Below are positions 7,193-64,000 of a stretch of 64,000 bases of DNA, piece after piece. This DNA comes from Bacteroidales bacterium (GTDB lineage Bacteria; Bacteroidota; Bacteroidia; Bacteroidales; WCHB1-69). The stretch covers positions 124,001 to 188,000 of the forward strand of contig JAFTCA010000041.1 of the NCBI GenBank assembly GCA_017454945.1. Direction: 5' to 3'. The notes below the pieces were generated by a model. It was not told the DNA's origin. It saw only the letters and a program-made list of their open reading frames with translations, and searched no databases. The position numbers were made by a program, and so were the translations under genes. The stretch's first letter is position 1. Each line of letters starts with the position of its first letter.

Positions 7193-8770
7193 ATGAAACA
7201 CATAGAAGGACAAATTGTGGATGTGCTTAACAGGGACATCTTTTCAGGTTCTCTTGACATTGAAGACGGTAAGATTGTAGCTGTCAACCGCCATGCCACC
7301 AAGGAGACGGTCTATATTATGCCAGGCTTCGTGGATGCCCATATCCATGTGGAAAGTTCGATGCTGGCCCCCTGCGAATATGCCCGTCTGGCGATGAAAC
7401 ACGGCACGGTGGCCATCGTGACCGACCCGCACGAAATTGCCAATGTCTGTGGTGTGGAGGGTGTGCGCTATATGATGGCCGAAAGCGACCGTACGCCGAT
7501 GAAAATGTGTTTCGCCGTGCCTTCGTGCGTGCCCGCCACCGCCTTGTGTCCGTCGGGGGCAGTCGTTGATTCGACGCAAGTGGCCGAACTGCTCAAGGAT
7601 CCGCATGTGTATGCTTTGGCCGAAATGATGGACTATGTGGGTGTTATTAACCACGATGCCGAGTGTGTTGCCAAGCTGGCCGCTGCCCGTCAGGCTGGCA
7701 AGCCCGTGGATGGCCATATTCCTTGCATTACAGGCGAGGATTTGCGCCATTATGTCGAAGAGGGCATCTCTACCGACCATGAAGTGAACACCTTGGCCGA
7801 AGCAGAGGAGAAAATGGAGTTGGGTATGAAAATCCTGCTTCGTCGCGGTAGTGCAGCCCGAAACCTCAAGGTGCTCCATCCGCTCATTGCCCAACATGCC
7901 GACATGCTGATGTTCTGCACCGACGACCAGAAGGCTTTTGACCTGCAAAATGGCCATATCAACAAGATGGTGGCGTCGGAAGTGCAGCTGGGCTACGACC
8001 TGTTCGATTTGCTCCGTATCGCATCGGTGAACCCCGTGCACCATTACCGCTTGCCCGTGGGGTTGCTGCAGCCTGGCGATCCTGCCGACTTTATCCTGTG
8101 CAAGTCGCTGACTACCTTTGATGTAGTGGAAACTTATATCGACGGTGAACCCACTTCGCACCTCGGATATCAGCCGGTGGAGCGCATAATTAACAATTTC
8201 AAGGTGCAGCCGATAACTACTTCCCAGATTGCATACGACCTGTCACAATGTGAAGAACTGCATGTTATAAAAGTGAAAGACGGCGAGCTGATTACACCCC
8301 ATCTGGTGCTCAAACGAGATGAGTGGGACGACATACAGAAGATTGTGGTAGTGAACCGTTATCAGGAAAATCCTTCTATTGGTGTGGGTTTTCTTTCTAA
8401 CTTTAATATTACCAATGGCGCTGTAGCCCAAAGCATTGCGCACGACAGTCACCACATCATTGCAACGGGCAGCAGCGACGAACTGATAGTGAAAGCCGTC
8501 AACCGACTGATAGAACTGCAGGGCGGTATTGTAGTGGTTGACGAGCATTCGGAAACCACTTTGCCCTTGCCCATTGGCGGCCTGATGAGCAATGAACCTG
8601 CCGAAACCGTTGCGGCCAAGCAAATTGCACTGATTCAGCACCTTCGCAAACTCGATTGTGTGCGTTTTTCCCCGCTCATTGCCTTGGCTTTCCTCGAACT
8701 GGTGGTCATTCCAGAACTTAAAATCACCGACAAGGGGCTGTTCGACGTAGTGAAGTTTGAGTATATATAG
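7193..8770 (+). CDS. ade: Adenine deaminase
   Basis: A 525-residue amidohydrolase-superfamily enzyme converting adenine to hypoxanthine in purine salvage. The metal-binding motif GFVDAHIHVESS (His50, His52, Glu54) and the following DPHEIANVCG stretch are diagnostic for the Ade subfamily. The C-terminal GGIVVVDE...LPLPIGGLMS segment is also typical. I chose ATG 7193, which places the -7 box at a sensible distance; an upstream in-frame start at 7166 would overlap that box. It stands alone between gdhA and the AT-rich accessory genes. Confidence 0.93.
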   Translation: MKHIEGQIVDVLNRDIFSGSLDIEDGKIVAVNRHATKETVYIMPGFVDAHIHVESSMLAPCEYARLAMKHGTVAIVTDPHEIANVCGVEGVRYMMAESDRTPMKMCFAVPSCVPATALCPSGAVVDSTQVAELLKDPHVYALAEMMDYVGVINHDAECVAKLAAARQAGKPVDGHIPCITGEDLRHYVEEGISTDHEVNTLAEAEEKMELGMKILLRRGSAARNLKVLHPLIAQHADMLMFCTDDQKAFDLQNGHINKMVASEVQLGYDLFDLLRIASVNPVHHYRLPVGLLQPGDPADFILCKSLTTFDVVETYIDGEPTSHLGYQPVERIINNFKVQPITTSQIAYDLSQCEELHVIKVKDGELITPHLVLKRDEWDDIQKIVVVNRYQENPSIGVGFLSNFNITNGAVAQSIAHDSHHIIATGSSDELIVKAVNRLIELQGGIVVVDEHSETTLPLPIGGLMSNEPAETVAAKQIALIQHLRKLDCVRFSPLIALAFLELVVIPELKITDKGLFDVVKFEYI

Positions 8771-8772
8771 AC

Positions 8773-8786
8773 GGTGCCTTCGATAG
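8773..8786 (+). repeat. Half copy of the GGTGCCTTCGA repeat
   Basis: GGTGCCTTCGATAG matches, in opposite orientation, one arm of the hairpin at 11051-11075 (GGTGCCTTCGACAG on the minus strand). The two copies bracket the AT-rich gene group. Confidence 0.4.
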
Positions 8787-8810
8787 AAATCATAAATTAA
8801 AAGAGTATAT

Positions 8811-9224
8811 ATGAATAAATTAAGTCGTTATTTGATAAGTTTTGTGTTGATTGCTTTGACATTATCATGTTTAGGTCAAAAGATAGATTATTCAACTATT
8901 GCAGAGATGCAAAAGGTAACAACTCTTGTTCCTAGGTACAAAATGTTTAAAACTGAAAATAGTGTGATTTTATTGAAATTGGATACAAGAACAGGAAAAG
9001 CTTGGATGACCCAGTTTCGTTCAGGAAGTACAAAAAGTTTAGAAATTCCAATTTCAGATACAGGTTTAGATTATGAATCCATGTCTTGGAATGGCCGTTT
9101 TGATATGTGTGCTACAAATAACATTTATAAATTCATAATTATTGATACGTATACAGGAAAGACATACATGCTTCAGTGGAATATAGAGGATGATAAACGG
9201 TTTGTTGAGCCAATTGTTGATTAA
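8811..9224 (+). CDS. Small secreted protein of unknown function
   Basis: A 137-residue protein with an N-terminal signal-peptide-like segment (MNKLSRYLISFVLIALTLSC), where the Cys at about residue 20 followed by LG could be a lipidation site, although the lipobox is imperfect. The mature part contains repeated short phrases, KLDTRTGKAWMTQ and IDTYTGKTYMLQW, that look like two blades of a small beta-structure. I do not recognise a named function. Base composition is clearly more AT-rich than ade upstream, and the gene may belong with the two AT-rich genes that follow. Confidence 0.6.
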   Translation: MNKLSRYLISFVLIALTLSCLGQKIDYSTIAEMQKVTTLVPRYKMFKTENSVILLKLDTRTGKAWMTQFRSGSTKSLEIPISDTGLDYESMSWNGRFDMCATNNIYKFIIIDTYTGKTYMLQWNIEDDKRFVEPIVD

Positions 9225-9388
9225 TTATATTTCAATACTCCATTTTGTGAAAAATACGTACTGAGAAGAAGTGTTTTCTTTTATTTTTACCAGTATTTTG
9301 CATTATTGTTGTATTTAACAATAAATTATTGTTGTATAATACAATTTTATTGCTATTTTTGCAGCAAGTAATATAAAGAAATTTAGAT

Positions 9389-9880
9389 ATGGCAACAAAA
9401 GTTGAATTTATAGACCCAATGCGTGTTAGAGTTACAACCTCTGATGGAGATTCTTTAATACTTGGATATACAGATTCCATGAATTATCAAATTGAACAAC
9501 AATGGGGTAATTTCTATTCCAGGTGTGTAGTAGGGTTGTTTGATAAGTATTATGATGGAACATCAGAGTCTCTGATGGGTCCTATTTTAAGAGGAATGTA
9601 TAGAAATCGGCTTAATCCTTTTTTCTGGGTTATGCCGGATAGAGATTCAGAACGTGTCCGTATGGGTAATCGTATCAAAGAACTACGTAAAATGCAAGGA
9701 ATGGATGCCAAAACATTAGCGCAAAAGGTAGGGATAGATGCTGGAAATTTAAGTCGAATTGAACAGGGCCGTTTTTCAGTGGGGTTTGATACATTGAGTA
9801 AAATTGCCGCAGTGCTCAATATGACAATTGATTTTATTCCTATTAATCAAGATAACAACTATAAAGAAACGAAACTTTGA
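9389..9880 (+). CDS. XRE-family helix-turn-helix protein with an extra N-terminal domain
   Basis: A 163-residue protein. The last 65 residues form a Cro/C1-type DNA-binding domain: MGNRIKELRKMQGMDAKTLAQKVGIDAGNLSRIEQGRFSV and onward through LSKIAAVLNMTIDFIP. The first 85 residues (VEFIDPMRVRVTTSDGDSLILGYTDS and on) are a separate beta-rich domain that I do not recognise, perhaps for ligand or partner binding. Its stop codon is two bases before the next gene's ATG at 9883, so the two are likely co-translated, with this protein a plausible repressor of the pair. The AT-rich gap 9225-9388 upstream should hold its promoter. Confidence 0.75.
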   Translation: MATKVEFIDPMRVRVTTSDGDSLILGYTDSMNYQIEQQWGNFYSRCVVGLFDKYYDGTSESLMGPILRGMYRNRLNPFFWVMPDRDSERVRMGNRIKELRKMQGMDAKTLAQKVGIDAGNLSRIEQGRFSVGFDTLSKIAAVLNMTIDFIPINQDNNYKETKL

Positions 9881-9882
9881 TT

Positions 9883-10647
9883 ATGATAGTGTTGTCGATG
9901 TCATATAAAGAAATATACGATCAATTGGCTGCTGATAAGGAGAAAGTTGATTGGAGAAAAGATTATTATTATAAAAAAGCAATAAGAGAATTGCGCAAAG
10001 CCACATCATTTCCGGCATATCAATGTTTTGATTATGAAAGTCCAAATAAAAATCATTATGTGATTAGTTATTTTGCGAGTGACAGACATCATATTGACCA
10101 ACCGATTATGGGGTCGTTCTTGGTCTTGTATGATAATCGCAAGAGGTATGTAGTTAAATGGGGAGCAGGAGGTTATCAGCATACGGAAGAAAGTCAAATA
10201 GCATTTATCAGGCAAATCCAAGTGTACACACAACATTTTTTTGATCGATACAAAAACAGATTTATAAAAAAGGATCTTTCTTCAAATGATATAGCCTGTC
10301 ATTTTTTTTCAAGGAATCAGCATGCAATACCAATCCAAATTGATAACAGAATAAATTATAATATTGACAAATACGGAAATAATGCGAAGCAAGGAATACG
10401 TGTTCGGGATGGTTTTTGCTTTACAAAAGTTGGTTTAGAAGGTAGAAGCAGTGAAGATGGTGATAGGTTAAAGGATAAAATCAATGCGCTATGTGTTCTA
10501 TATACAACATTTATGAGAGAAGAGGATATGAAAGAGATGCAACAAAATGCGATTAAGATGGAGCAAAGAGTAGAAATGCTTCGTTTTCAGTCGTCTATTA
10601 GAAAACAATTTCCGGATGGAATGATTTCTTTTACGTTAGAGCACTAA
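9883..10647 (+). CDS. Unknown protein paired with the XRE regulator
   Basis: A 254-residue protein without a recognised domain. It is rich in Lys, Arg and aromatic residues, has no signal peptide or membrane segment, and ends in a helical region with heptad-like character (REEDMKEMQQNAIKMEQRVEML). The start is uncertain: TTG 9877, ATG 9883 and ATG 9898 (MSYKEIYDQ) are all in frame; I give 9883. Base composition is strongly AT-rich and unlike the flanking core genes, which suggests acquisition together with the regulator. A toxin or effector role is possible by context only. Confidence 0.55.
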   Translation: MIVLSMSYKEIYDQLAADKEKVDWRKDYYYKKAIRELRKATSFPAYQCFDYESPNKNHYVISYFASDRHHIDQPIMGSFLVLYDNRKRYVVKWGAGGYQHTEESQIAFIRQIQVYTQHFFDRYKNRFIKKDLSSNDIACHFFSRNQHAIPIQIDNRINYNIDKYGNNAKQGIRVRDGFCFTKVGLEGRSSEDGDRLKDKINALCVLYTTFMREEDMKEMQQNAIKMEQRVEMLRFQSSIRKQFPDGMISFTLEH

Positions 10648-10867
10648 GAATTTTATGGATTTCTTCGCACGGTATATCCCCTCGAAATGATGTGCTGCAT
10701 CGGTTAGCTGATTTTGCTTCGTATTCTCGTTCGTGACTCCGCAATGCAGTTCTGATAGAATATTGTCTGTAATGATACGGCGGCATTTCGTTAACGGTAA
10801 ACGACCGATTTTGCGTGGGGTTTGCATTCCACGCTATTGTTCAGATGTCCTTACAGGACTATGTTAA

Positions 10868-10883
10868 TGCCCCTTTAGGGGCA
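10868..10883. repeat. Perfect 16-bp palindrome
   Basis: TGCCCCTTTAGGGGCA; its arms TGCCCCT and AGGGGCA pair with a two-base loop. It is the first of four palindromes within 210 bases. Confidence 0.5.
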
Positions 10884-10894
10884 ACAGCTTGGTA

Positions 10895-10932
10895 GCCATG
10901 GGTGAGGAAGCGCAGCGACCGAAACCCATGGC
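10895..10932. repeat. Inverted repeat with 9-bp arms
   Basis: GCCATGGGT at 10895-10903 pairs with ACCCATGGC at 10924-10932 around a 20-base loop containing GAAGCGCAGCGACC. It could form an RNA or cruciform hairpin. Confidence 0.5.
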
Positions 10933-10954
10933 CGAGATGTGCAACGTTCCCCGT

Positions 10955-11001
10955 GCGGCGCTGGTATGAAGGTGCAATGAAACAAGACGGGAATGCGCCG
11001 C
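10955..11001. repeat. Inverted repeat with GC-only 7-bp arms
   Basis: GCGGCGC at 10955-10961 pairs with GCGCCGC at 10995-11001 around a 33-base loop. It is the third member of the palindrome series. Confidence 0.4.
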
Positions 11002-11050
11002 AAAAACACAATAGGACAAATGTGGTTTCATTTTGTGCCGTCAATAAAAC

Positions 11051-11075
11051 GGTGCCTGAACCTGTCGAAGGCACC
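11051..11075 (-). terminator. GGTGCCT hairpin, probable terminator of the porin gene and dispersed repeat
   Basis: GGTGCCT at 11051-11057 pairs with AGGCACC at 11069-11075. On the minus strand it starts just past the porin stop at 11082 and is followed by GTTTTATT, so it can act as a terminator. The sequence family (CCTTCGACAGG with GGCACC) also appears as a half copy at 8773. Confidence 0.5.
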
Positions 11076-11081
11076 GACTGC

Positions 11082-12131
11082 CTAGTATTCTACTTGCAAA
11101 CTCAGATAGACGTAATGGTTAAGATGCCCGTTGGGAGAGATGAGCATTCGGTAGTTGGGCGTGATTTGAACATATTTGATGGGCGAATACTGGAAACCTG
11201 CAGTGACGGTGTGTCCGCTGAACGGGTCGTCGTCAAGGTTGGAAAAGAGATAATCCCAGCGGCTGAAAATCTCGAAATTCTTAGGAAGGACAAACGATGC
11301 ATAAGCCGAAATGCCATGCTGATGGTAGTCTGCCTTGAAGTGTGAATTGAACAGGTTGTTGAATTCTGCGGCAATGGTGAACAGACGATGCTGGTAGCCT
11401 GCAAAGAACGACAGGTTTTCCTGTGCTTTGCCCAGTGTGTCGGTGTCGGCTTCGTCGCCGCGGTCGGCGTAAACACGGATGGCCAGTCCTTCGATAGGTC
11501 TGAAAGTGATGCCCGCACCATACTTGAATTTGTTGTCAACATGCAGTTTGCGGTATCCTTCGCCGTTGACAAACATGGCGTCGGCTTCGAGCCAGTGGGT
11601 GAATCTGTAGCGGACTGTCACACCCAGGTCGGCGGCCTTGCCAAAGTCTTTGATATCCTGGAACGAGCGAAGCATGTAACTGTATTTCCAGTAGTCCATT
11701 TGCAAAGTGAACTGTTCGAGCGGCACCAGTCCCACATTGAGAGTGAGGTTGCGTGGTTCCCAACACAGCATGGCGTATTTGACGTATGCAATTCGTTCTA
11801 TTTCAGAACCTTCGATTTTTGGGAGGCCCACGTCAAATAAAATGGTGGTGGACAATGTCTTCGTGAAATCAAGGCGATAGCCGAGGTAGGAACGGTCGAG
11901 TTCAAACCCGATGTCCTTGCGTTTCTCGCCAAAGCCGCTGTGAAAGTTGACAAACAGAAGTAAGATGGGTTTGCCATGGATTTTGAATTTCTTCGCGCTG
12001 TCGTTTTTTACCAGCACAGAGTCGCTAACAGCCGTTTGGGCTGTCAGTAAGGGAATTGAAATGGTGCATAGCAGAAGAAAGGCAAAAATCGCTTTAAAAG
12101 CATAGAGTGATAATTGTCGTTGGTTTGTCAT
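11082..12131 (-). CDS. Outer-membrane porin-like beta-barrel protein
   Basis: A 349-residue protein with a signal peptide (FAFLLLCTISIPLLTAQ) and a mature region dominated by alternating aromatic and polar strands typical of porins, ending in the aromatic residue pattern LSLQVEY. Segments such as LGYRLDFTKTLSTTILFDVG, VGLVPLEQFTLQMDYWKYSYMLRSF and FAGYQHRLFTIAAEFNNLF fit the OprO/OprP-like porin superfamily; substrate is unknown. Its ATG overlaps the stop codon of the upstream GH3-family gene by four bases (ATGA), so the two form a tightly coupled operon. Confidence 0.7.
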   Translation of the reverse strand: MTNQRQLSLYAFKAIFAFLLLCTISIPLLTAQTAVSDSVLVKNDSAKKFKIHGKPILLLFVNFHSGFGEKRKDIGFELDRSYLGYRLDFTKTLSTTILFDVGLPKIEGSEIERIAYVKYAMLCWEPRNLTLNVGLVPLEQFTLQMDYWKYSYMLRSFQDIKDFGKAADLGVTVRYRFTHWLEADAMFVNGEGYRKLHVDNKFKYGAGITFRPIEGLAIRVYADRGDEADTDTLGKAQENLSFFAGYQHRLFTIAAEFNNLFNSHFKADYHQHGISAYASFVLPKNFEIFSRWDYLFSNLDDDPFSGHTVTAGFQYSPIKYVQITPNYRMLISPNGHLNHYVYLSLQVEY

Positions 12132-13639
12132 GCGGTTGTTAGGATTTCAGTGATTATTTTTCTGTCGTTCTGTAGGCGAGGCACTTTGTGTTGTCCGCCC
12201 AATTTGTTGCGCGAGGCGAGCCATTTAAGAAAGGTACCTTGCGGAAGTACATGTACCAAAGGCCTTTTGAGTAATAGGTCGTCGGTGCGCTTGGCTTCGT
12301 AGTCAGAGTTGAGTTGCTTCAAGCTCTGGTCGAGAATATTGGTAAAAAGTTCCAGATTATCAGGTTGTTGCGAGAACTCAATCGCCCACTCGTGACAGGC
12401 ATGGTCGTGGGCATCCATGTAGACGGGCGCTGCCGTGTAGTCGGTAAGGATGGCATGGGTGGCGCGACAGGCTTCCTCAAGGGCTTTGTCGGCATTATCC
12501 ACAATTAACTCTTCGCCGAAAACATTGATATAATGACTGGTACGTCCTGTAATCTTAAATCTGTACGGATTCAGTGAGGTGAACTCGATGGTGTCGCCAA
12601 TCTTGTAACGCCACAGACCGGCCATGGTGGTGATGACGAGAGCGTAAGTCTGTCCTAATTTAACATCTTGCAGAAGAACGCTTTGCGAATCGGCGGCGTT
12701 GCCGATATCATCCATAGGAATGAACTCGTAAAAGACACCGTGGTCGCAGAGCAATAGCATATCATCGCTCTCGGTCGTATCTTGGAATCCGAAGAAGCCT
12801 TCCGAGGCATTGTAGGTATTGAGGTAAGTGAAGTTATCCTTGGGGATAATCTGCTTAAACTCTTCTCTGTAAGGGGCAAAGGCCACACCGCCGTGGAAAT
12901 AGACTTCCAGATTGGGCCACACCTCAAGAATGTTGCTTTTGCCAGCTATTTCCATCACTCGCTTCAATACCAGCAACATCCACGAAGGAACTCCCGAAAT
13001 GGTGGTGACATTTTCGCGGTAAGTCTCCGAGGCCATCAGCTCAAGTTTCTGATTCCAGTCTTGCATTAGCAGTATCTCTCTGCGCGGTGCTTTGAGAATG
13101 TCGCCCAGGGAAGGCATGTTGGCCAGCAGGATGGCGGATACATCACCGCAGCGCACATTGCTGTTTTGTTCCATGGTATGGAAACTGCCGCCTAACGCAA
13201 CCGATTTGCCACCAAACATTTGTGTGTCAGGAAACAGGTGACTATAGACTATCAGCTCGTCGCTGGCTGCTGCGTAGTTGTTCTTGTAGAGAGCATCGCT
13301 GCTGACAGGAATGTATTTGCTCTTGGCGCTGGTGGTGCCCGATGATTTGGCCATCCACTTGATGGGTTTGTCCCAAAGAATATTGCTCTCTCCGCGTATA
13401 ATGCGTTCTACATAAGGCATTAACGAAGGGTAATCGTGGATGGGCATGGCCTGTCTGAACTGCTCAACCGACATGTTGGAAGTGGTGCCGTAACTTTTTC
13501 CAATCAAAGTCTTGTTGCAGTGCCGTATGAGTTGTTTGAAAAGCATCTCCTGTGTCTCGCATTGCTTCTCAAGGAGCGTTGTAAGTCGTTTGTGCTGAGA
13601 TAGAAAGAAACTGCGAACAAGAGTGTTGAGTAGTTGCAT
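12128..13639 (-). CDS. GH3-family acyl-adenylating ligase-like protein
   Basis: A 503-residue protein resembling the GH3 auxin-responsive promoter family, which belongs to the adenylate-forming superfamily and in plants conjugates amino acids to carboxylic acids. Visible family features include SSGTTSAKSKYIPVS (ATP phosphate-binding loop), the YNASEGFFGFQD segment, and IGDTIEFTSLNPYRFKITGRTSHYINVFGEELIVDNAD. The bacterial substrate is not known. I chose ATG 13639 (MQLLNTLVRSFFLSQHKR); a longer start would run through the ispE promoter. It is divergent from ispE with only 37 bases between starts, and overlaps the downstream porin gene. Confidence 0.85.
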   Translation of the reverse strand: MQLLNTLVRSFFLSQHKRLTTLLEKQCETQEMLFKQLIRHCNKTLIGKSYGTTSNMSVEQFRQAMPIHDYPSLMPYVERIIRGESNILWDKPIKWMAKSSGTTSAKSKYIPVSSDALYKNNYAAASDELIVYSHLFPDTQMFGGKSVALGGSFHTMEQNSNVRCGDVSAILLANMPSLGDILKAPRREILLMQDWNQKLELMASETYRENVTTISGVPSWMLLVLKRVMEIAGKSNILEVWPNLEVYFHGGVAFAPYREEFKQIIPKDNFTYLNTYNASEGFFGFQDTTESDDMLLLCDHGVFYEFIPMDDIGNAADSQSVLLQDVKLGQTYALVITTMAGLWRYKIGDTIEFTSLNPYRFKITGRTSHYINVFGEELIVDNADKALEEACRATHAILTDYTAAPVYMDAHDHACHEWAIEFSQQPDNLELFTNILDQSLKQLNSDYEAKRTDDLLLKRPLVHVLPQGTFLKWLASRNKLGGQHKVPRLQNDRKIITEILTTA

Positions 13640-13656
13640 GATTTTTCTTAAATTTG
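13626..13656 (+). promoter_or_regulatory. Promoter of ispE
   Basis: TTG at 13626-13628, a 20-base spacer and TAAATTTG at 13649-13656 match the Bacteroidetes consensus. Transcription would begin near 13663, just ahead of the ispE ATG at 13677. The -33 box lies inside the first codons of the divergent GH3-family gene. Confidence 0.55.
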
Positions 13657-13676
13657 CAAGCAAAAGTAAGAAAAAA

Positions 13677-14456
13677 ATGGTCATCCGCCCGCTATGCAAG
13701 ATTAATATCGGTCTAAATATTGTAGAAAAAAGGAAAGATGGTTTTCATAATATCGAAACCGTCTTTTATCCCATATTGCAATGGACTGATACTCTTGAGA
13801 TAACGCCTTGTGAGGGCGACTCATCGCTGGTCGTTGTGCCGCAGGGGCTGACCACCACGATGGAGGATAATCTCTGCATGAAGGCGTTGCGTTTGCTACA
13901 GCGCGACTTGCCTGTTGGCCAAGTGACGATGCGGCTGCAGAAGAATATCCCTGTTGGCGCTGGCCTCGGCGGCGGCTCCAGCGATGCCGCTGCCGTGCTG
14001 AATGCCTTGAACGACCTGTTTCACCTGAATCTTACCGACGAAGTACTGCAACGCTATGCTGCGCAGTTGGGCAGCGATGTCGCTTTCTTTATCCGCTCGA
14101 TGCCAGTCTATGCTACGGGCAGGGGAGAGGTGATGCGCCCCATTTCCCTTGACCTGTCGCGGAAAGAGATTACCGTCATCCATCCGGGCTTGCACATCTC
14201 TACGGCTGAGGCATACGCCGGTGTGACCCCGCACAAGGCCGATTATTCGCTTGAAGAGGCGGTGAAATTGCCTGTCAGTGAATGGAAGGGATTGATTAAG
14301 AATGATTTTGAAGACACGCTGTTTGTCCGTTATCCTGTGCTGCAACGGTTGAAGGAACACTTGTATGCGCAAGGCGCCGACTATGTGTCACTCTCGGGCA
14401 GTGGCTCAGCTGTATATGCTATCGGAGATGAGAAATATTTTGGATTAAATCATTGA
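13677..14456 (+). CDS. ispE: 4-diphosphocytidyl-2-C-methyl-D-erythritol kinase
   Basis: A 259-residue GHMP kinase catalysing the ATP-dependent phosphorylation step of the MEP isoprenoid pathway. It begins with the substrate-binding KINIGLNIVEKRKDGFHNIETVFYPI segment, contains the ATP-binding PVGAGLGGGSSDAAAVL loop near residue 95 and the C-terminal SLSGSGSAVYAI motif. It is a little short compared with many family members but has every motif. I chose ATG 13677, which sits about 14 bases after the predicted transcription start; the longer frame from 13623 would overlap the divergent gene. Confidence 0.95.
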   Translation: MVIRPLCKINIGLNIVEKRKDGFHNIETVFYPILQWTDTLEITPCEGDSSLVVVPQGLTTTMEDNLCMKALRLLQRDLPVGQVTMRLQKNIPVGAGLGGGSSDAAAVLNALNDLFHLNLTDEVLQRYAAQLGSDVAFFIRSMPVYATGRGEVMRPISLDLSRKEITVIHPGLHISTAEAYAGVTPHKADYSLEEAVKLPVSEWKGLIKNDFEDTLFVRYPVLQRLKEHLYAQGADYVSLSGSGSAVYAIGDEKYFGLNH

Positions 14457-14469
14457 TTTATATATATTT

Positions 14470-16296
14470 GTGAAAACAAAAAGACATTTATACTATGGCC
14501 TTTTAGGCATTGTTCTGCTGGTTTTGTTCGCTAATGTTGCGGGCTATGCCCAGGAGACTATCAAGGCAGAGCCGTTTTATCTGAAGGCCCTACAGAACCG
14601 TTTGAGTGAAGATGAAACGCAGATGTTGAGAGCTATCTATGCGCCGACGGTGGTGGGTGTGCCACCGTCAGATGCGCGTGCAGATATGTGTGTGATGCCC
14701 GACGGCGAGATTCGTGTCTATGGCGCACGCTACCGCACGCCTGAACAGCCGAAAGGTATTCCCGTCTATATCGCCTCGACCGATGGTGGTCTCTCGTGGA
14801 AACAATACTTCCATAAAGGTGTGATGGGCTCAGCTACCTATTTTCCAGAATGGGGATTGTGGATGAAATGTGCGGAAAATGCTGGTAATGAGACTGGTAC
14901 TTTTGTTTTGATTTCAAAAGAGGGTCCCGATGCCACTACTACTGATGCTGTCAAGGTGAGTCGAAGGAAGCATGAGGGTGCTTTTCTGCCGCAGCGGACT
15001 GCCGATGGGAAGCGTGTGTTTTTCACGGCTCAGCAATTAGATGAAAATCAAGAGAAACCAGCTGTCTATTTCTATTCCGACAATAAGGGAAAATCCTTCC
15101 AACAGGTAGTGGTTCATCAGCCGGAGCAGCAGCTCGTGGTTTATCCGCATAAGGATGTTCGCTGGTCGGTTGGCAACGGCACCGAGCCTGTTGTATGTGA
15201 AGTGGAGAAGGGTAAAATGCTGATGCTTCTGCGCAACTCCACCGACTGCTTCTACCAAAGCTTCTCGTACGACCGTGGCAGCAGTTGGACTGTGCCTCAG
15301 CCGTCGCCATTTCAGGGCACCAATACAACGCCGTTCCTGCTCCGTCTGTCCGATGGTCGCATTGTGGCCTTTTGGAACAACTCGCGGCCATTGCCCGAAG
15401 TGGACCACAAACAGCAGCCCAATGCCAAGGAGAGCGTGCTGAAAGGCACTTGCGAGGATTACTTCACCAACCGCGATGTGAGTCATGTGGCTATCAGCGA
15501 TGATGGCGGCCGCACTTGGAAAGGGGTGCGCGAACTCTATTTGAATAGTATTCGTAACAATGCGGATTTCAGATATTTAGGAACGCCGCTTTCGTCAAAT
15601 GACAAGAGTGTGCACCAGTTTCAGGCCATCGAGTTGCCCTATCATAAAGTGCTGGTGGCTGTTGGTCAGAATGAAGCGTCGCGACGTCTGCTCATCTTCG
15701 ATGTGGATTGGTTGTATGAAACGGAGCGTTTTGAGGATTTCTACGAGGGCTTGGCCAACGTCTCAACGCAAGTCTATTTGAAAAGTGTGGTCGGCCACAC
15801 TGATCGCAACGGGCATTGTGCCTACAACCGGACCAACGGCGCTGTGAAGGTGCCCGATCCGACAGGCTCCACTTGGGAAGTGGTGCAGCTTTCGCGCATC
15901 AACGACCCGCGCCTGGTTAGTCCCATTCAAGGGTTGGTGTGGAATTTTCCTGCAGCCATGCAAGGAGAGGTCGAAACGGAAATCTATTTGGCCGAGGATG
16001 CTGCGAATATTTCCTTGAGCGATTGCTGGTATAATCCGTGCGACGAGTACGCACCCGAATTTACCCTCTTTTCTTTCCATATTGATAAAAACAAAATGTC
16101 GTTAGGTCAGTATCATAAAGTAAAATTCGCCTTTGATTTGGCTGCCCGAAAAGCCGATATGTATATTGATGGTCATTATGTTGAATCTTGCACTCTGAAA
16201 CATGATTTCCATATCGGTCTGTCATACATTATTATACAATGTCAGGCTGCGAAAGAGTCGGAGGGTTTGTATGTGAAAAGTCTGCACAAAAAATAA
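14470..16296 (+). CDS. Secreted sialidase-like (BNR / Asp-box) protein
   Basis: A 608-residue protein with an N-terminal signal peptide (LLGIVLLVLFANVAGYAQ). It has four Asp-box motifs of the S-x-D-x-G-x-x-W type: STDGGLSW, SDNKGKSF, SYDRGSSW and SDDGGRTW, which mark a six-bladed sialidase-type propeller. The C-terminal 150 residues look like a separate beta-sandwich. Exo-sialidase activity is possible, but I cannot place the full catalytic set of the GH33 family, so related propeller glycosidases or lyases remain open. The start is GTG at 14470; no in-frame ATG fits. It follows ispE by 13 bases. Confidence 0.75.
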   Translation: MKTKRHLYYGLLGIVLLVLFANVAGYAQETIKAEPFYLKALQNRLSEDETQMLRAIYAPTVVGVPPSDARADMCVMPDGEIRVYGARYRTPEQPKGIPVYIASTDGGLSWKQYFHKGVMGSATYFPEWGLWMKCAENAGNETGTFVLISKEGPDATTTDAVKVSRRKHEGAFLPQRTADGKRVFFTAQQLDENQEKPAVYFYSDNKGKSFQQVVVHQPEQQLVVYPHKDVRWSVGNGTEPVVCEVEKGKMLMLLRNSTDCFYQSFSYDRGSSWTVPQPSPFQGTNTTPFLLRLSDGRIVAFWNNSRPLPEVDHKQQPNAKESVLKGTCEDYFTNRDVSHVAISDDGGRTWKGVRELYLNSIRNNADFRYLGTPLSSNDKSVHQFQAIELPYHKVLVAVGQNEASRRLLIFDVDWLYETERFEDFYEGLANVSTQVYLKSVVGHTDRNGHCAYNRTNGAVKVPDPTGSTWEVVQLSRINDPRLVSPIQGLVWNFPAAMQGEVETEIYLAEDAANISLSDCWYNPCDEYAPEFTLFSFHIDKNKMSLGQYHKVKFAFDLAARKADMYIDGHYVESCTLKHDFHIGLSYIIIQCQAAKESEGLYVKSLHKK

Positions 16297-16353
16297 GAAT
16301 TAAACTCTTTTTGCAGGAATGAAATAGATGCCTGTTTGGAATGATTTTTTATT

Positions 16354-61066: not shown

Positions 61067-63445
61067 GTGAAACGACTGGCTCTCTTTTTGTTGTTTGTTT
61101 TGCTGTCGTCTTTTTCCTTTGCCCAGCATTTTTCTGTTTCAGGTGTTATCAAAGATGCCGCTAATGGCGAAACACTACCAGGAGTCTATGTGGTTATGCA
61201 GCCTGCATACGTCCACGCAGAGACAAAAGGGGCGGTAACGAATAAAGCTGGTTTTTATTCGGTTACGCTTGATACGGGTGTCTATGTTTTGCATATAGCC
61301 TATTTGGGTTATAAAGAGGTTACAGATACAATCTATTTGTTTCATAATCATGCACTTAATTTTGAATTGCAACCTTCTGCTGTGGTGACCGACGAAGTGG
61401 TGGTGACGGCCCAGCGCGATGACCATAATGTGACGAGCATCGAGGTGGGAAAGATGGAGATGAAGATTGAAACGGTAAAGGCGTTGCCCGCGCTGTTTGG
61501 CGAAGTGGATGTGCTGAAATCCATACAGTTGCTGCCTGGTGTGCAGTCGGCGACGGAAGGTAATACGGGCTTTTATGTCCGCGGTGGCGGCCCCGACCAG
61601 AACTTGATATTGTTGGATGAGGCCACTATCTATACTGCGGGCCACCTGTTTGGTTTTTTCTCAGTCTTTAATGGCGACGCCGTGAAAAGCGTGGAGATTA
61701 CAAAGTCGGGAATGCCCGCCTATTATGGTGGTCGCCTGGCCTCTATTCTGGATGTTTATCAGAAAGAAGGCAATTTGAAAAAATACCAAGTGGATGGTGG
61801 TATCGGCCTCATTTTCTCGCGTCTGACAGTGCAGGGGCCTATCAAGAAAAATGTGGCGTCGTTCATTGTGTCAGCACGCCGTACTTACGCAGATGTGCTG
61901 ATGCAGCCTTTTTTGAAGAAGAGTTCTCCCATGAAGGGGATGAAGTTCTATTTCTACGATTTGAATGCCAAAATCAACTGGATAATAAACGATAAGCATC
62001 GCCTCTATTTAGGCGCTTACTATGGAAATGACAAGTATGGCTTCAAGTCCAAGTCGGGCGATACGAAGGCAATCTTCAATTGGGGCAATGCAGCCGTTTC
62101 GTTGCGTTGGAACTATATCATCACACCGCAGCTTTTCTTGAACACGTCGGCAAGTTTTACCAATTATGATTTCGGTACGACTATGCAAATGTCTGTGTAT
62201 GAGTTTAATCTCAAATCGGGTGTGCGCGACTACTCCCTGAAGAGCGAACTGACTTATTTGCCATCATTCCCTCATCAGTTCAAGTTTGGTGTGCATTATG
62301 TTTTCCATACGCTCTTTCCTAATAGCTACGATGTTCATGCCGGTGATGCCGCCACGTTATCGCTGCCAACGTCCAAACCCTATTATGCCCACGATTTGTC
62401 AGTTTATGCCAATGATGAGTTCGAGGTATGTCGCTGGTTAAAAGTGAATGCTGGCTTGCGTTATACTTTTTTTGCGCATATTGGGTCGTTTACGCGTTAT
62501 GTGTTGGATGATACCTATGCTGTTGTCGATTCTATCATATATCGCCCTGGCCAGTTGGTGAAGGCCTACAACTCAGCGGAACCTCGCTTGTCGTTGCGCT
62601 TCTTGATTGATTCTGCCACCTCCATCAAGGCCTCCTACACGATGAACTATCAGTATCTGCATCAGGCCTCCATGGCCACCGTGTCGCTGCCTACCGATGT
62701 ATGGATGCCGTCAACCGACATTGTGAAGCCTCAAATCGGTCATCAGGTGTCGCTGGGGTTTTATCGCAACTTCCGTCGCAACATGTTCGAAACATCAGTC
62801 GATTTCTACTATAAATGGCTCTATAATTTGATTGAATATCGTGACGGCTTGAATCTTAATATGATTAATATTAATGCTGATCAGATGTACACGTTTGGAA
62901 AAGGCTGGTCGTATGGTGTTGAATTTTTTGTCAAGAAGGCGAAAGGGCGTTTCACAGGCTTTATCGGCTATACACTTTCGTTCACCAAACGTAAATTTGA
63001 AGAGTTGAATGGGGGTAAACCGTTCTATGCCAAGTATGATCGCCGCCATGACTTGTCAATCAACCTTTCTTACGAAATCATTGTTGGCAAACTGACCGCT
63101 TCGATGGTGTTTGTCTTCGCTAGCGGCAATACGATGACCATCCCGCTCGGCTATTATTTCTTCGACGGCAATCTGATTACCGAGTATTCCGAGCGCAATG
63201 CCTATCGGTTGCCGCCATATCATCGCCTCGACTTGTCGTTGAATTGGACCATCAAGAAGACTGCCAAGTGGGAGACAGGTCTTAATTTCTCCATCTATAA
63301 TGTTTATAATCACAAGAATCCGTTCTTTATCTTTTTCGAAACCACTACCGATTTTTCGCCCACACAATTTGAAATGGAAACCAAGGCCTATCAGATGAGC
63401 CTTCTCCCCATAATTCCTTCTATTACCTGGAATTTCAGTTTCTAA
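61067..63445 (+). CDS. TonB-dependent outer-membrane receptor, second copy
   Basis: A 792-residue protein: signal peptide (KRLALFLLFVLLSSFSFAQ), CarboxypepD_reg-like domain (FSVSGVIKDAANGETLPGVYVVM, VLHIAYLGYKEVTDT), plug domain (VDVLKSIQLLPGVQSATEGNTGFYVRGGGPDQNLILLDEA) and a barrel ending in PSITWNFSF. The start is GTG at 61067, 10 bases after the T9SS protein stop, so the two are co-transcribed. As with the first receptor there is no SusD partner; the co-transcribed surface protein could act as the ligand-capturing partner, which is inference. Confidence 0.9.
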   Translation: MKRLALFLLFVLLSSFSFAQHFSVSGVIKDAANGETLPGVYVVMQPAYVHAETKGAVTNKAGFYSVTLDTGVYVLHIAYLGYKEVTDTIYLFHNHALNFELQPSAVVTDEVVVTAQRDDHNVTSIEVGKMEMKIETVKALPALFGEVDVLKSIQLLPGVQSATEGNTGFYVRGGGPDQNLILLDEATIYTAGHLFGFFSVFNGDAVKSVEITKSGMPAYYGGRLASILDVYQKEGNLKKYQVDGGIGLIFSRLTVQGPIKKNVASFIVSARRTYADVLMQPFLKKSSPMKGMKFYFYDLNAKINWIINDKHRLYLGAYYGNDKYGFKSKSGDTKAIFNWGNAAVSLRWNYIITPQLFLNTSASFTNYDFGTTMQMSVYEFNLKSGVRDYSLKSELTYLPSFPHQFKFGVHYVFHTLFPNSYDVHAGDAATLSLPTSKPYYAHDLSVYANDEFEVCRWLKVNAGLRYTFFAHIGSFTRYVLDDTYAVVDSIIYRPGQLVKAYNSAEPRLSLRFLIDSATSIKASYTMNYQYLHQASMATVSLPTDVWMPSTDIVKPQIGHQVSLGFYRNFRRNMFETSVDFYYKWLYNLIEYRDGLNLNMININADQMYTFGKGWSYGVEFFVKKAKGRFTGFIGYTLSFTKRKFEELNGGKPFYAKYDRRHDLSINLSYEIIVGKLTASMVFVFASGNTMTIPLGYYFFDGNLITEYSERNAYRLPPYHRLDLSLNWTIKKTAKWETGLNFSIYNVYNHKNPFFIFFETTTDFSPTQFEMETKAYQMSLLPIIPSITWNFSF

Positions 63446-63489: not shown

Positions 63490-63519
63490 TTGTAATTGTA
63501 AATAATTTATTTATTTTTG
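63490..63519 (+). promoter_or_regulatory. Promoter of the double-glycine peptide transcript
   Basis: TTG at 63490-63492, a 19-base spacer and TATTTTTG at 63512-63519 match the consensus at ideal spacing. Transcription would start near 63526, giving a leader of about 325 bases before the ATG at 63853. The stretch 63446-63680 has no gene. Confidence 0.6.
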
Positions 63520-63681
63520 CAGCAAATAAACGGTTTGTAAATATGCTTAAATAATTGTGATTATTGTATGTATATAATATTGTAATGTTTTCTATGATTA
63601 TTTGCAATAACTTAATATTTTAATAATATAACGCTTCGTTTCATGATAAATAAATTGTGCAAAAACAACTTGAGTTAGCGG

Positions 63682-63818
63682 GTCTCTGTCATCATGTTTC
63701 CAGATGGCGGAGACGGACGGTATGGTTGTCAAGGCATGGCTGACGTGGGGACGGGAAGACGGACAGTCTTCCATTGTGTGGTGTTGATCTGGCCCAACTT
63801 GCTGTGCAAAATCAGGTC
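63682..63818 (+). promoter_or_regulatory. Structured leader or small RNA with three hairpins
   Basis: Hairpin 1: GTCTCTGTCATC (63682-63693) pairs with GATGGCGGAGAC (63703-63714), 12 bp including two G-U wobbles, with a 9-base loop. Hairpin 2: GGAAGAC (63754-63760) with GTCTTCC (63766-63772). Hairpin 3: GATCTG (63786-63791) with CAGGTC (63813-63818), enclosing TTGC/GCAA. The segment is markedly more GC-rich than the AT-rich bases around it. The wobble pairs form only in plus-strand RNA. I cannot assign it to a known RNA family. Confidence 0.5.
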
Positions 63819-63852
63819 TTGTAATCATTGTTAATTATTAAATGTTTTGAAT

Positions 63853-64000
63853 ATGAGAAAGTTGGAATTTGAAATGGTTGAAGAAGGTCTGCAAATTGAT
63901 ACCTTGAATAATTATCTTCCCAATGTGGTGCATAAACTGACCGATGAAGAGATGGAGGCCATCTATGGTGGCACTGTAGGTTGTAATTGCAAATGGCATG
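63853..64000 (+). CDS. Double-glycine-leader peptide, probable natural-product precursor, cut by the window end
   Basis: The 49 visible residues begin MRKLEFEMVEEGLQ and contain the leader signature LTDEEMEAIYGG, after which comes TVGCNCKWH, running out of the window. Acidic leader helices ending in GG mark peptides that are trimmed and exported by peptidase-containing ABC transporters, and Cys-rich cores are typical of bacteriocin or modified-peptide (RiPP) precursors; Bacteroidales have families of this kind. The modification type and exporter cannot be known from this window. The start is the only ATG, 13 bases after TTAATTATTAAATG-like AT-rich sequence. Confidence 0.6.
   Translation, partial: MRKLEFEMVEEGLQIDTLNNYLPNVVHKLTDEEMEAIYGGTVGCNCKWH

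Follow-up and report, generated by a model that had tools for sequence, protein, structure and literature searches.

At the right edge of the window, i.e. the 64,000-nucleotide stretch analysed here (C5:124001-188000, on the 280,563-base contig C5 of a 2.6 Mb Bacteroidales draft genome that is 96.7% complete), lies a small peptide gene cut by the edge, followed just beyond it by the gene of a radical-SAM/SPASM enzyme. The features are as follows; locus L002 covers C5:187001-207000, and its coordinates plus 63000 give window coordinates.

63490..63519, plus strand: match to a Bacteroidota-type promoter, TTG-N19-TATTTTTG (sequence and pattern counts; plausible, weak alone)
63520..63852, plus strand: inferred 5' untranslated leader, about 330 nt long and rich in G+C at about 63670-63815
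63853..64000, plus strand: precursor peptide gene, cut by the window edge; whole gene C5:187853-188110 (open reading frame, leader HMM)
63853..63972, plus strand: leader-coding part, residues 1-40, ending ...DEEMEAIYGG (sequence, alignment with GG leaders of relatives)
C5:188142-189443 (L002:1142-2443), outside the window: radical-SAM/SPASM maturase of 433 aa, starting 31 bases 3' of the precursor stop

The ATG at 63853, the leader end IYGG and the residues GCNCKWH running up to the edge, all read directly from the sequence, lie exactly where the first-pass annotation had placed them. With the contig extended rightward, the frame closes after 85 codons and a stop, 110 bases past the window edge, rather than reading on into a large protein, and the modifying enzyme looked for beyond the edge is present as the next gene, supporting the earlier proposal of a double-glycine RiPP precursor as the first gene of a pair running past the window. 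The precursor consists of an acidic 40-residue leader (MRKLEFEMVEEGLQIDTLNNYLPNVVHKLTDEEMEAIYGG; pI 4.3, GG at 39-40) and a 45-residue core (TVGCNCKWHGCNHCAHVECLKLCKTKVFGDNTTTVADTTGTVRLL; residues 41-85, pI 8.3) with six Cys at positions 44, 46, 51, 54, 59 and 63, all within 20 residues and followed by a Thr-rich tail devoid of Cys; three His are interspersed among the Cys in the stretch CNCKWHGCNHCAHVEC. A C39 peptidase would be expected to cut after the second Gly. Using a leader HMM built from 18 foreign sequences only, with the own genome left out, the precursor ranked first of 1,526 small ORFs from own-genome loci (full-ORF E 0.0013), followed by a peptide on contig C36, with nothing else below E 1. 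It resembles the GG-Bacteroidales radical-SAM targets of TIGR04149 (GG_sam_targ_CFB) in leader shape and GG; scored with this model, as had been suggested as a check, it reached 19.8 bits (19.9 in the genome scan) and thus stays below the curated cut-off of 25, and membership was rejected. The bacteriocin_sig and pheromone models match the leader weakly.

The promoter match, composed of TTG at 63490-63492, 19 bases and TATTTTTG at 63512-63519, and its distance of 334 bases to the ATG are exact as first described. TATTTTTG occurs 11 times in the window, 4.4 being expected; the promoter match alone is weak evidence since the full pattern TTG-N18-21-TAnnTTTG is found 14 times in the window, several of these within genes. 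That the precursor is preceded by a transcript leader some 330 nt long is plausible from the sequence. The first-pass annotation had described this leader as long and structured, and the latter is not supported: the fold has z -0.7 as a whole and z -2.1 in the G+C-rich segment, which is no stronger than in control intergenic regions of this genome, there is no Rfam match and no second copy was found in the genome, so that a regulatory RNA was dropped as a candidate. The peptide on C36 likewise has TTG-N20-TAACTTTG 322 bases upstream and a long 5' region, for which a fold z of -4.8 is matched by ordinary intergenic regions of the genome; the two 5' leaders show no similarity beyond shuffles. 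The promoter match begins 45 bases past the stop of a TonB receptor gene (61067-63445). The T9SS/TonB genes lie just upstream, as first described, and are probably mere neighbours of the pair, because the pair has its own promoter match behind them and this linkage was not observed in the relatives examined. We rejected the receptor as a counterpart of the outer-membrane barrels in related cassettes, as it belongs to another Pfam barrel family and shows only weak local similarity.

The maturase has both a radical-SAM and a SPASM domain, the latter (TIGR04085) over its cut-off. Its best family matches, almost full-length, are to peptide maturases of NCBIfam, namely the Clo7bot (247 bits), TIGR04463 (222), geopeptide (198) and CefB (192) families, which are named for other precursor types, the scores being half or less of each curated cut-off; membership in Clo7bot (TIGR04334) was rejected at 246.9 bits against a cut-off of 600. 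Since the enzyme lies far under every curated equivalog cut-off, its chemistry is not readable from a family. Among 20 aligned sequences, TIGR04463, CefB, geopeptide and FlmE/OhkG models match all 20 and Clo7bot 19, and the Cys of the CX3CX2C motif (C98, C102, C105) and of the SPASM domain (C319, C338, C377, C380, C386, C390, C407) are invariant. The AlphaFold2 model (pLDDT 88) superimposes on CteB with Z 26.3 over 401 residues from residue 4, and on TigE with Z 22.1 over 385 residues from residue 1, the N-terminal domain being included in both; anSME matches the catalytic part. Residues 7-59 form three strands and then helices in this model, a candidate RRE-like domain. CteB, the SCIFF maturase of the ranthipeptide class (PDB 5wgg), is also the best PDB sequence match (profile E 1.3e-40) and shares the radical-SAM barrel, the SPASM domain and a possible RRE-like N-terminus. 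Identity between the two enzymes is about 17-19%, and the precursor of this locus has a GG leader and does not belong to the SCIFF peptides. The literature was searched for Clo7bot and for S41 peptidases combined with radical SAM without any match; for TigE, none of the papers listed was relevant. The genes to the right of the maturase are ordinary, i.e. GNAT-like, SDR, RsmD, a FolK-dNK fusion and methylmalonyl-CoA mutase.

Homologous maturases are found in 11 of 104 genomes of the family (E 1e-40 or better) and in 15 of 393 genomes of the order (E 1e-60), with further relatives in Prevotellaceae, other Bacteroidota, Acidobacteriota, Aminicenantes and one Clostridia bin. In many genomes they adjoin small, Cys-rich ORFs with GG leaders, and G443 (four copies), G075 and G245 share the core motif CxC[K/R] shortly past the GG. 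The pair in related genomes is mostly accompanied by a C39-peptidase ABC exporter, which we observed near the maturase in 19 loci (L104, L105, L107-L112, L114, L115, L028, L182-L187, L189, L190), often together with HlyD, an S41 peptidase or an outer-membrane barrel; the DNA examined of six other loci (L024, L025, L026, L027, L029, L106) contained no C39 exporter. The sister of the maturase in the tree (support 96/91) is that of L104 (genome G075), a complete cassette of peptide, S41 peptidase, maturase, HlyD and C39 ABC transporter in one run. The L104 peptide, whose core begins RCDCKNRCDNKKCC, shares the Thr-rich tail and does not conserve the His residues; its leader is split over two frames by either a sequencing error or decay. 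In G443, a tandem array of four GG-leader peptides with CxC[KR]...CxC-type cores (L182:235-1128) precedes one maturase, an outer-membrane barrel, a C39 exporter and a short adaptor. An S41-family peptidase recurs beside this maturase subfamily and perhaps performs a further processing step; with one query, in a search lacking a positive control, none was found in the own genome.

S41-family peptidases near maturases: L105:1836-3428, L104:6978-8432, L024:9280-10791
S41-family peptidases near maturases: L110:1575-3140, L114:4171-5757, L188:1713-3356

The first-pass annotation had named a C39 exporter among the genes to look for. Neither such an exporter nor an immunity gene is present at the precursor/maturase locus, and in the whole genome just one C39 match exceeds the Pfam cut-off, that encoded on contig C70 (C70:55598-57787). 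This protein keeps the C39 Cys/His/Asp residues, Walker A and the ABC signature and shares 64-68% identity with most exporters found in same-family cassettes. Within the family, exporters of the same clade occur in 9 of the 11 genomes with the maturase and in 19 of the 93 lacking it (Fisher p 9e-5), in counts read by hand with partial genes included and relatedness uncorrected. The genome encodes a second pair on C36 (L157:8200-9897, minus strand), the maturases of the two pairs belonging to different subfamilies.

L157:9667-9897, minus strand: 76-aa Cys-rich peptide with GG leader, MKQLNMTLLNSEELAEIQGG/AGKPYSCNKS...
L157:8200-9612, after the peptide: PapB-like radical-SAM/SPASM maturase, 179 bits of 340

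With two unlinked peptide/maturase pairs and one exporter, the simplest reading is that the C5 and C36 peptides would share the C70 exporter in trans.

The C70 exporter gene is followed by that of a 169-residue protein; the HlyD partners of close relatives have 424-460 aa. The short protein has no Pfam match; its N-terminus is close to that of the full HlyD partners, and a profile comparison pairs its family with the C-terminal part of HlyD at 99.5% probability. Other loci encode similar short adaptors, and those tested against Pfam again had no match.

Short HlyD-like adaptors, 153-177 aa: L103:14179-14688 (G000:C70), L028:7751-8257, L107:4823-5326, L182:7171-7704
Short HlyD-like adaptors, 153-177 aa: L183:2627-3088, L187:1721-2212, L190:4368-4847

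The L182 adaptor covers positions 302-412 only of TIGR01843, and its model (pLDDT 77) is similar to adaptor barrels such as that of MacA (E 5e-4); the similarity to HlyD of the HlyB/D complex is weak (7sgr, E 4e-3). The short adaptors are apparently HlyD proteins without the lipoyl and hairpin parts. An outer-membrane barrel is part of the cassette in 6 of 8 loci with a short adaptor and in 2 of 14 with a full-length one (Fisher p 0.008), in a small sample of the loci read only, uncorrected for relatedness. For the Bacteroidales clusters BGC6-9, a PCAT and an outer-membrane protein only were described, the membrane-fusion protein being missing (Fernandez-Cantos et al. 2023, PMC10352776); the short adaptors may be these missing proteins. 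Between the C70 exporter and its adaptor lies a 387-base spacer (L103:13792-14178, G000:C70), which holds an inverted repeat of the ATTCCTTCG...CGAAGGAA type and has a very stable fold (z -6.8).

Taken together, the locus very probably encodes a radical-SAM-modified, probably thioether-linked RiPP, expressed from a two-gene operon, matured in cis and exported in trans. This reading is carried by the gene pair itself, its domain make-up, the predicted fold, the conservation of pair and exporter and an intact-looking exporter. According to this model, the 85-residue precursor would be translated and its acidic leader would dock on the putative RRE-like N-terminal region of the maturase, which would use SAM and iron-sulfur clusters to modify the Cys-rich core. 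The products would most likely be thioethers connecting Cys sulfurs to carbons of other residues, as in ranthipeptides or sactipeptides; that such ranthipeptide-type links are probable is suggested solely by the fold similarity to CteB. The modified peptide would then be cut after the GG and exported in trans by the C70 transporter, assisted by its short HlyD-like partner, and would probably serve as a secreted peptide in competition or signalling. More tentatively, we propose a dispersed RiPP network, in which at least two unlinked pairs would share the C70 exporter and a short adaptor consisting of the membrane-proximal part only, implying an outer-membrane step unlike the usual adaptor-TolC duct.

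A possible, rather unlikely alternative is the same RiPP system with another modification, such as carbon-carbon bonds, epimerisation or oxidation, the six Cys forming disulfides or serving as metal ligands. This would fit with a fold that enzymes differing in chemistry, anSME and TigE among them, have in common, with the maturase falling into no curated family and with a Cys/His spacing of the core that could bind metal; however, the thioether-forming CteB is among the best full-length matches, Cys-rich cores are a constant feature of the adjacent peptides, and the His are not conserved in the sister peptide. We consider it improbable that peptide and maturase are a decayed remnant, which has lost its exporter and is no longer used: the lack of a local exporter, the isolation of the pair amid unrelated genes and the shortened HlyD partner point this way, but the frames of precursor and maturase are intact with all catalytic Cys kept, the C70 exporter is intact and belongs to the expected clade, and the genome holds a second intact pair. 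Least probable is that the GG-leader peptide is a class II-like bacteriocin or a pheromone that stays unmodified, the maturase acting on something else, which the weak matches of the leader to the corresponding models would favour, but the pairing with this maturase subfamily recurs in many genera and even phyla.

Returning to the thioether-linked RiPP as the preferred reading, the kind of system is already known: RiPP clusters that combine GG-leader precursors with radical-SAM enzymes and PCAT exporters have been published from Bacteroidales, including BGC3 and BGC5 with GG-like precursors and no local PCAT (PMC10352776). The system shares with these clusters the GG leader, the radical-SAM/SPASM enzyme, the C39 exporter and the same or a near bacterial group, and differs in having its exporter on another contig and in that neither maturase nor precursor reaches a curated family cut-off. 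The maturase subfamily and precursor type are not yet named by curated models. Our analysis adds a Cys-rich precursor type with CxC[K/R] shortly past the GG and a maturase subfamily missed by these models. Cluster-based mining would overlook the exporter of this system because it is encoded elsewhere. If export in trans holds true, one exporter would serve several unlinked modified peptides, which is directly testable.

A cassette with a related maturase was observed in Muribaculaceae (L054:5249-13947) and in another Bacteroidota bin (L040:about 7800-16300). In both, a tiny ORF ending GPCDMCWGDLSL is followed by a radical-SAM/SPASM enzyme and accompanied by two MiaB/RimO-type methylthiotransferases and a second radical-SAM enzyme; L054 further holds a third methylthiotransferase, an S9 peptidase and an M42 aminopeptidase. 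This cassette resembles a RiPP pathway that includes methylthiolation enzymes.
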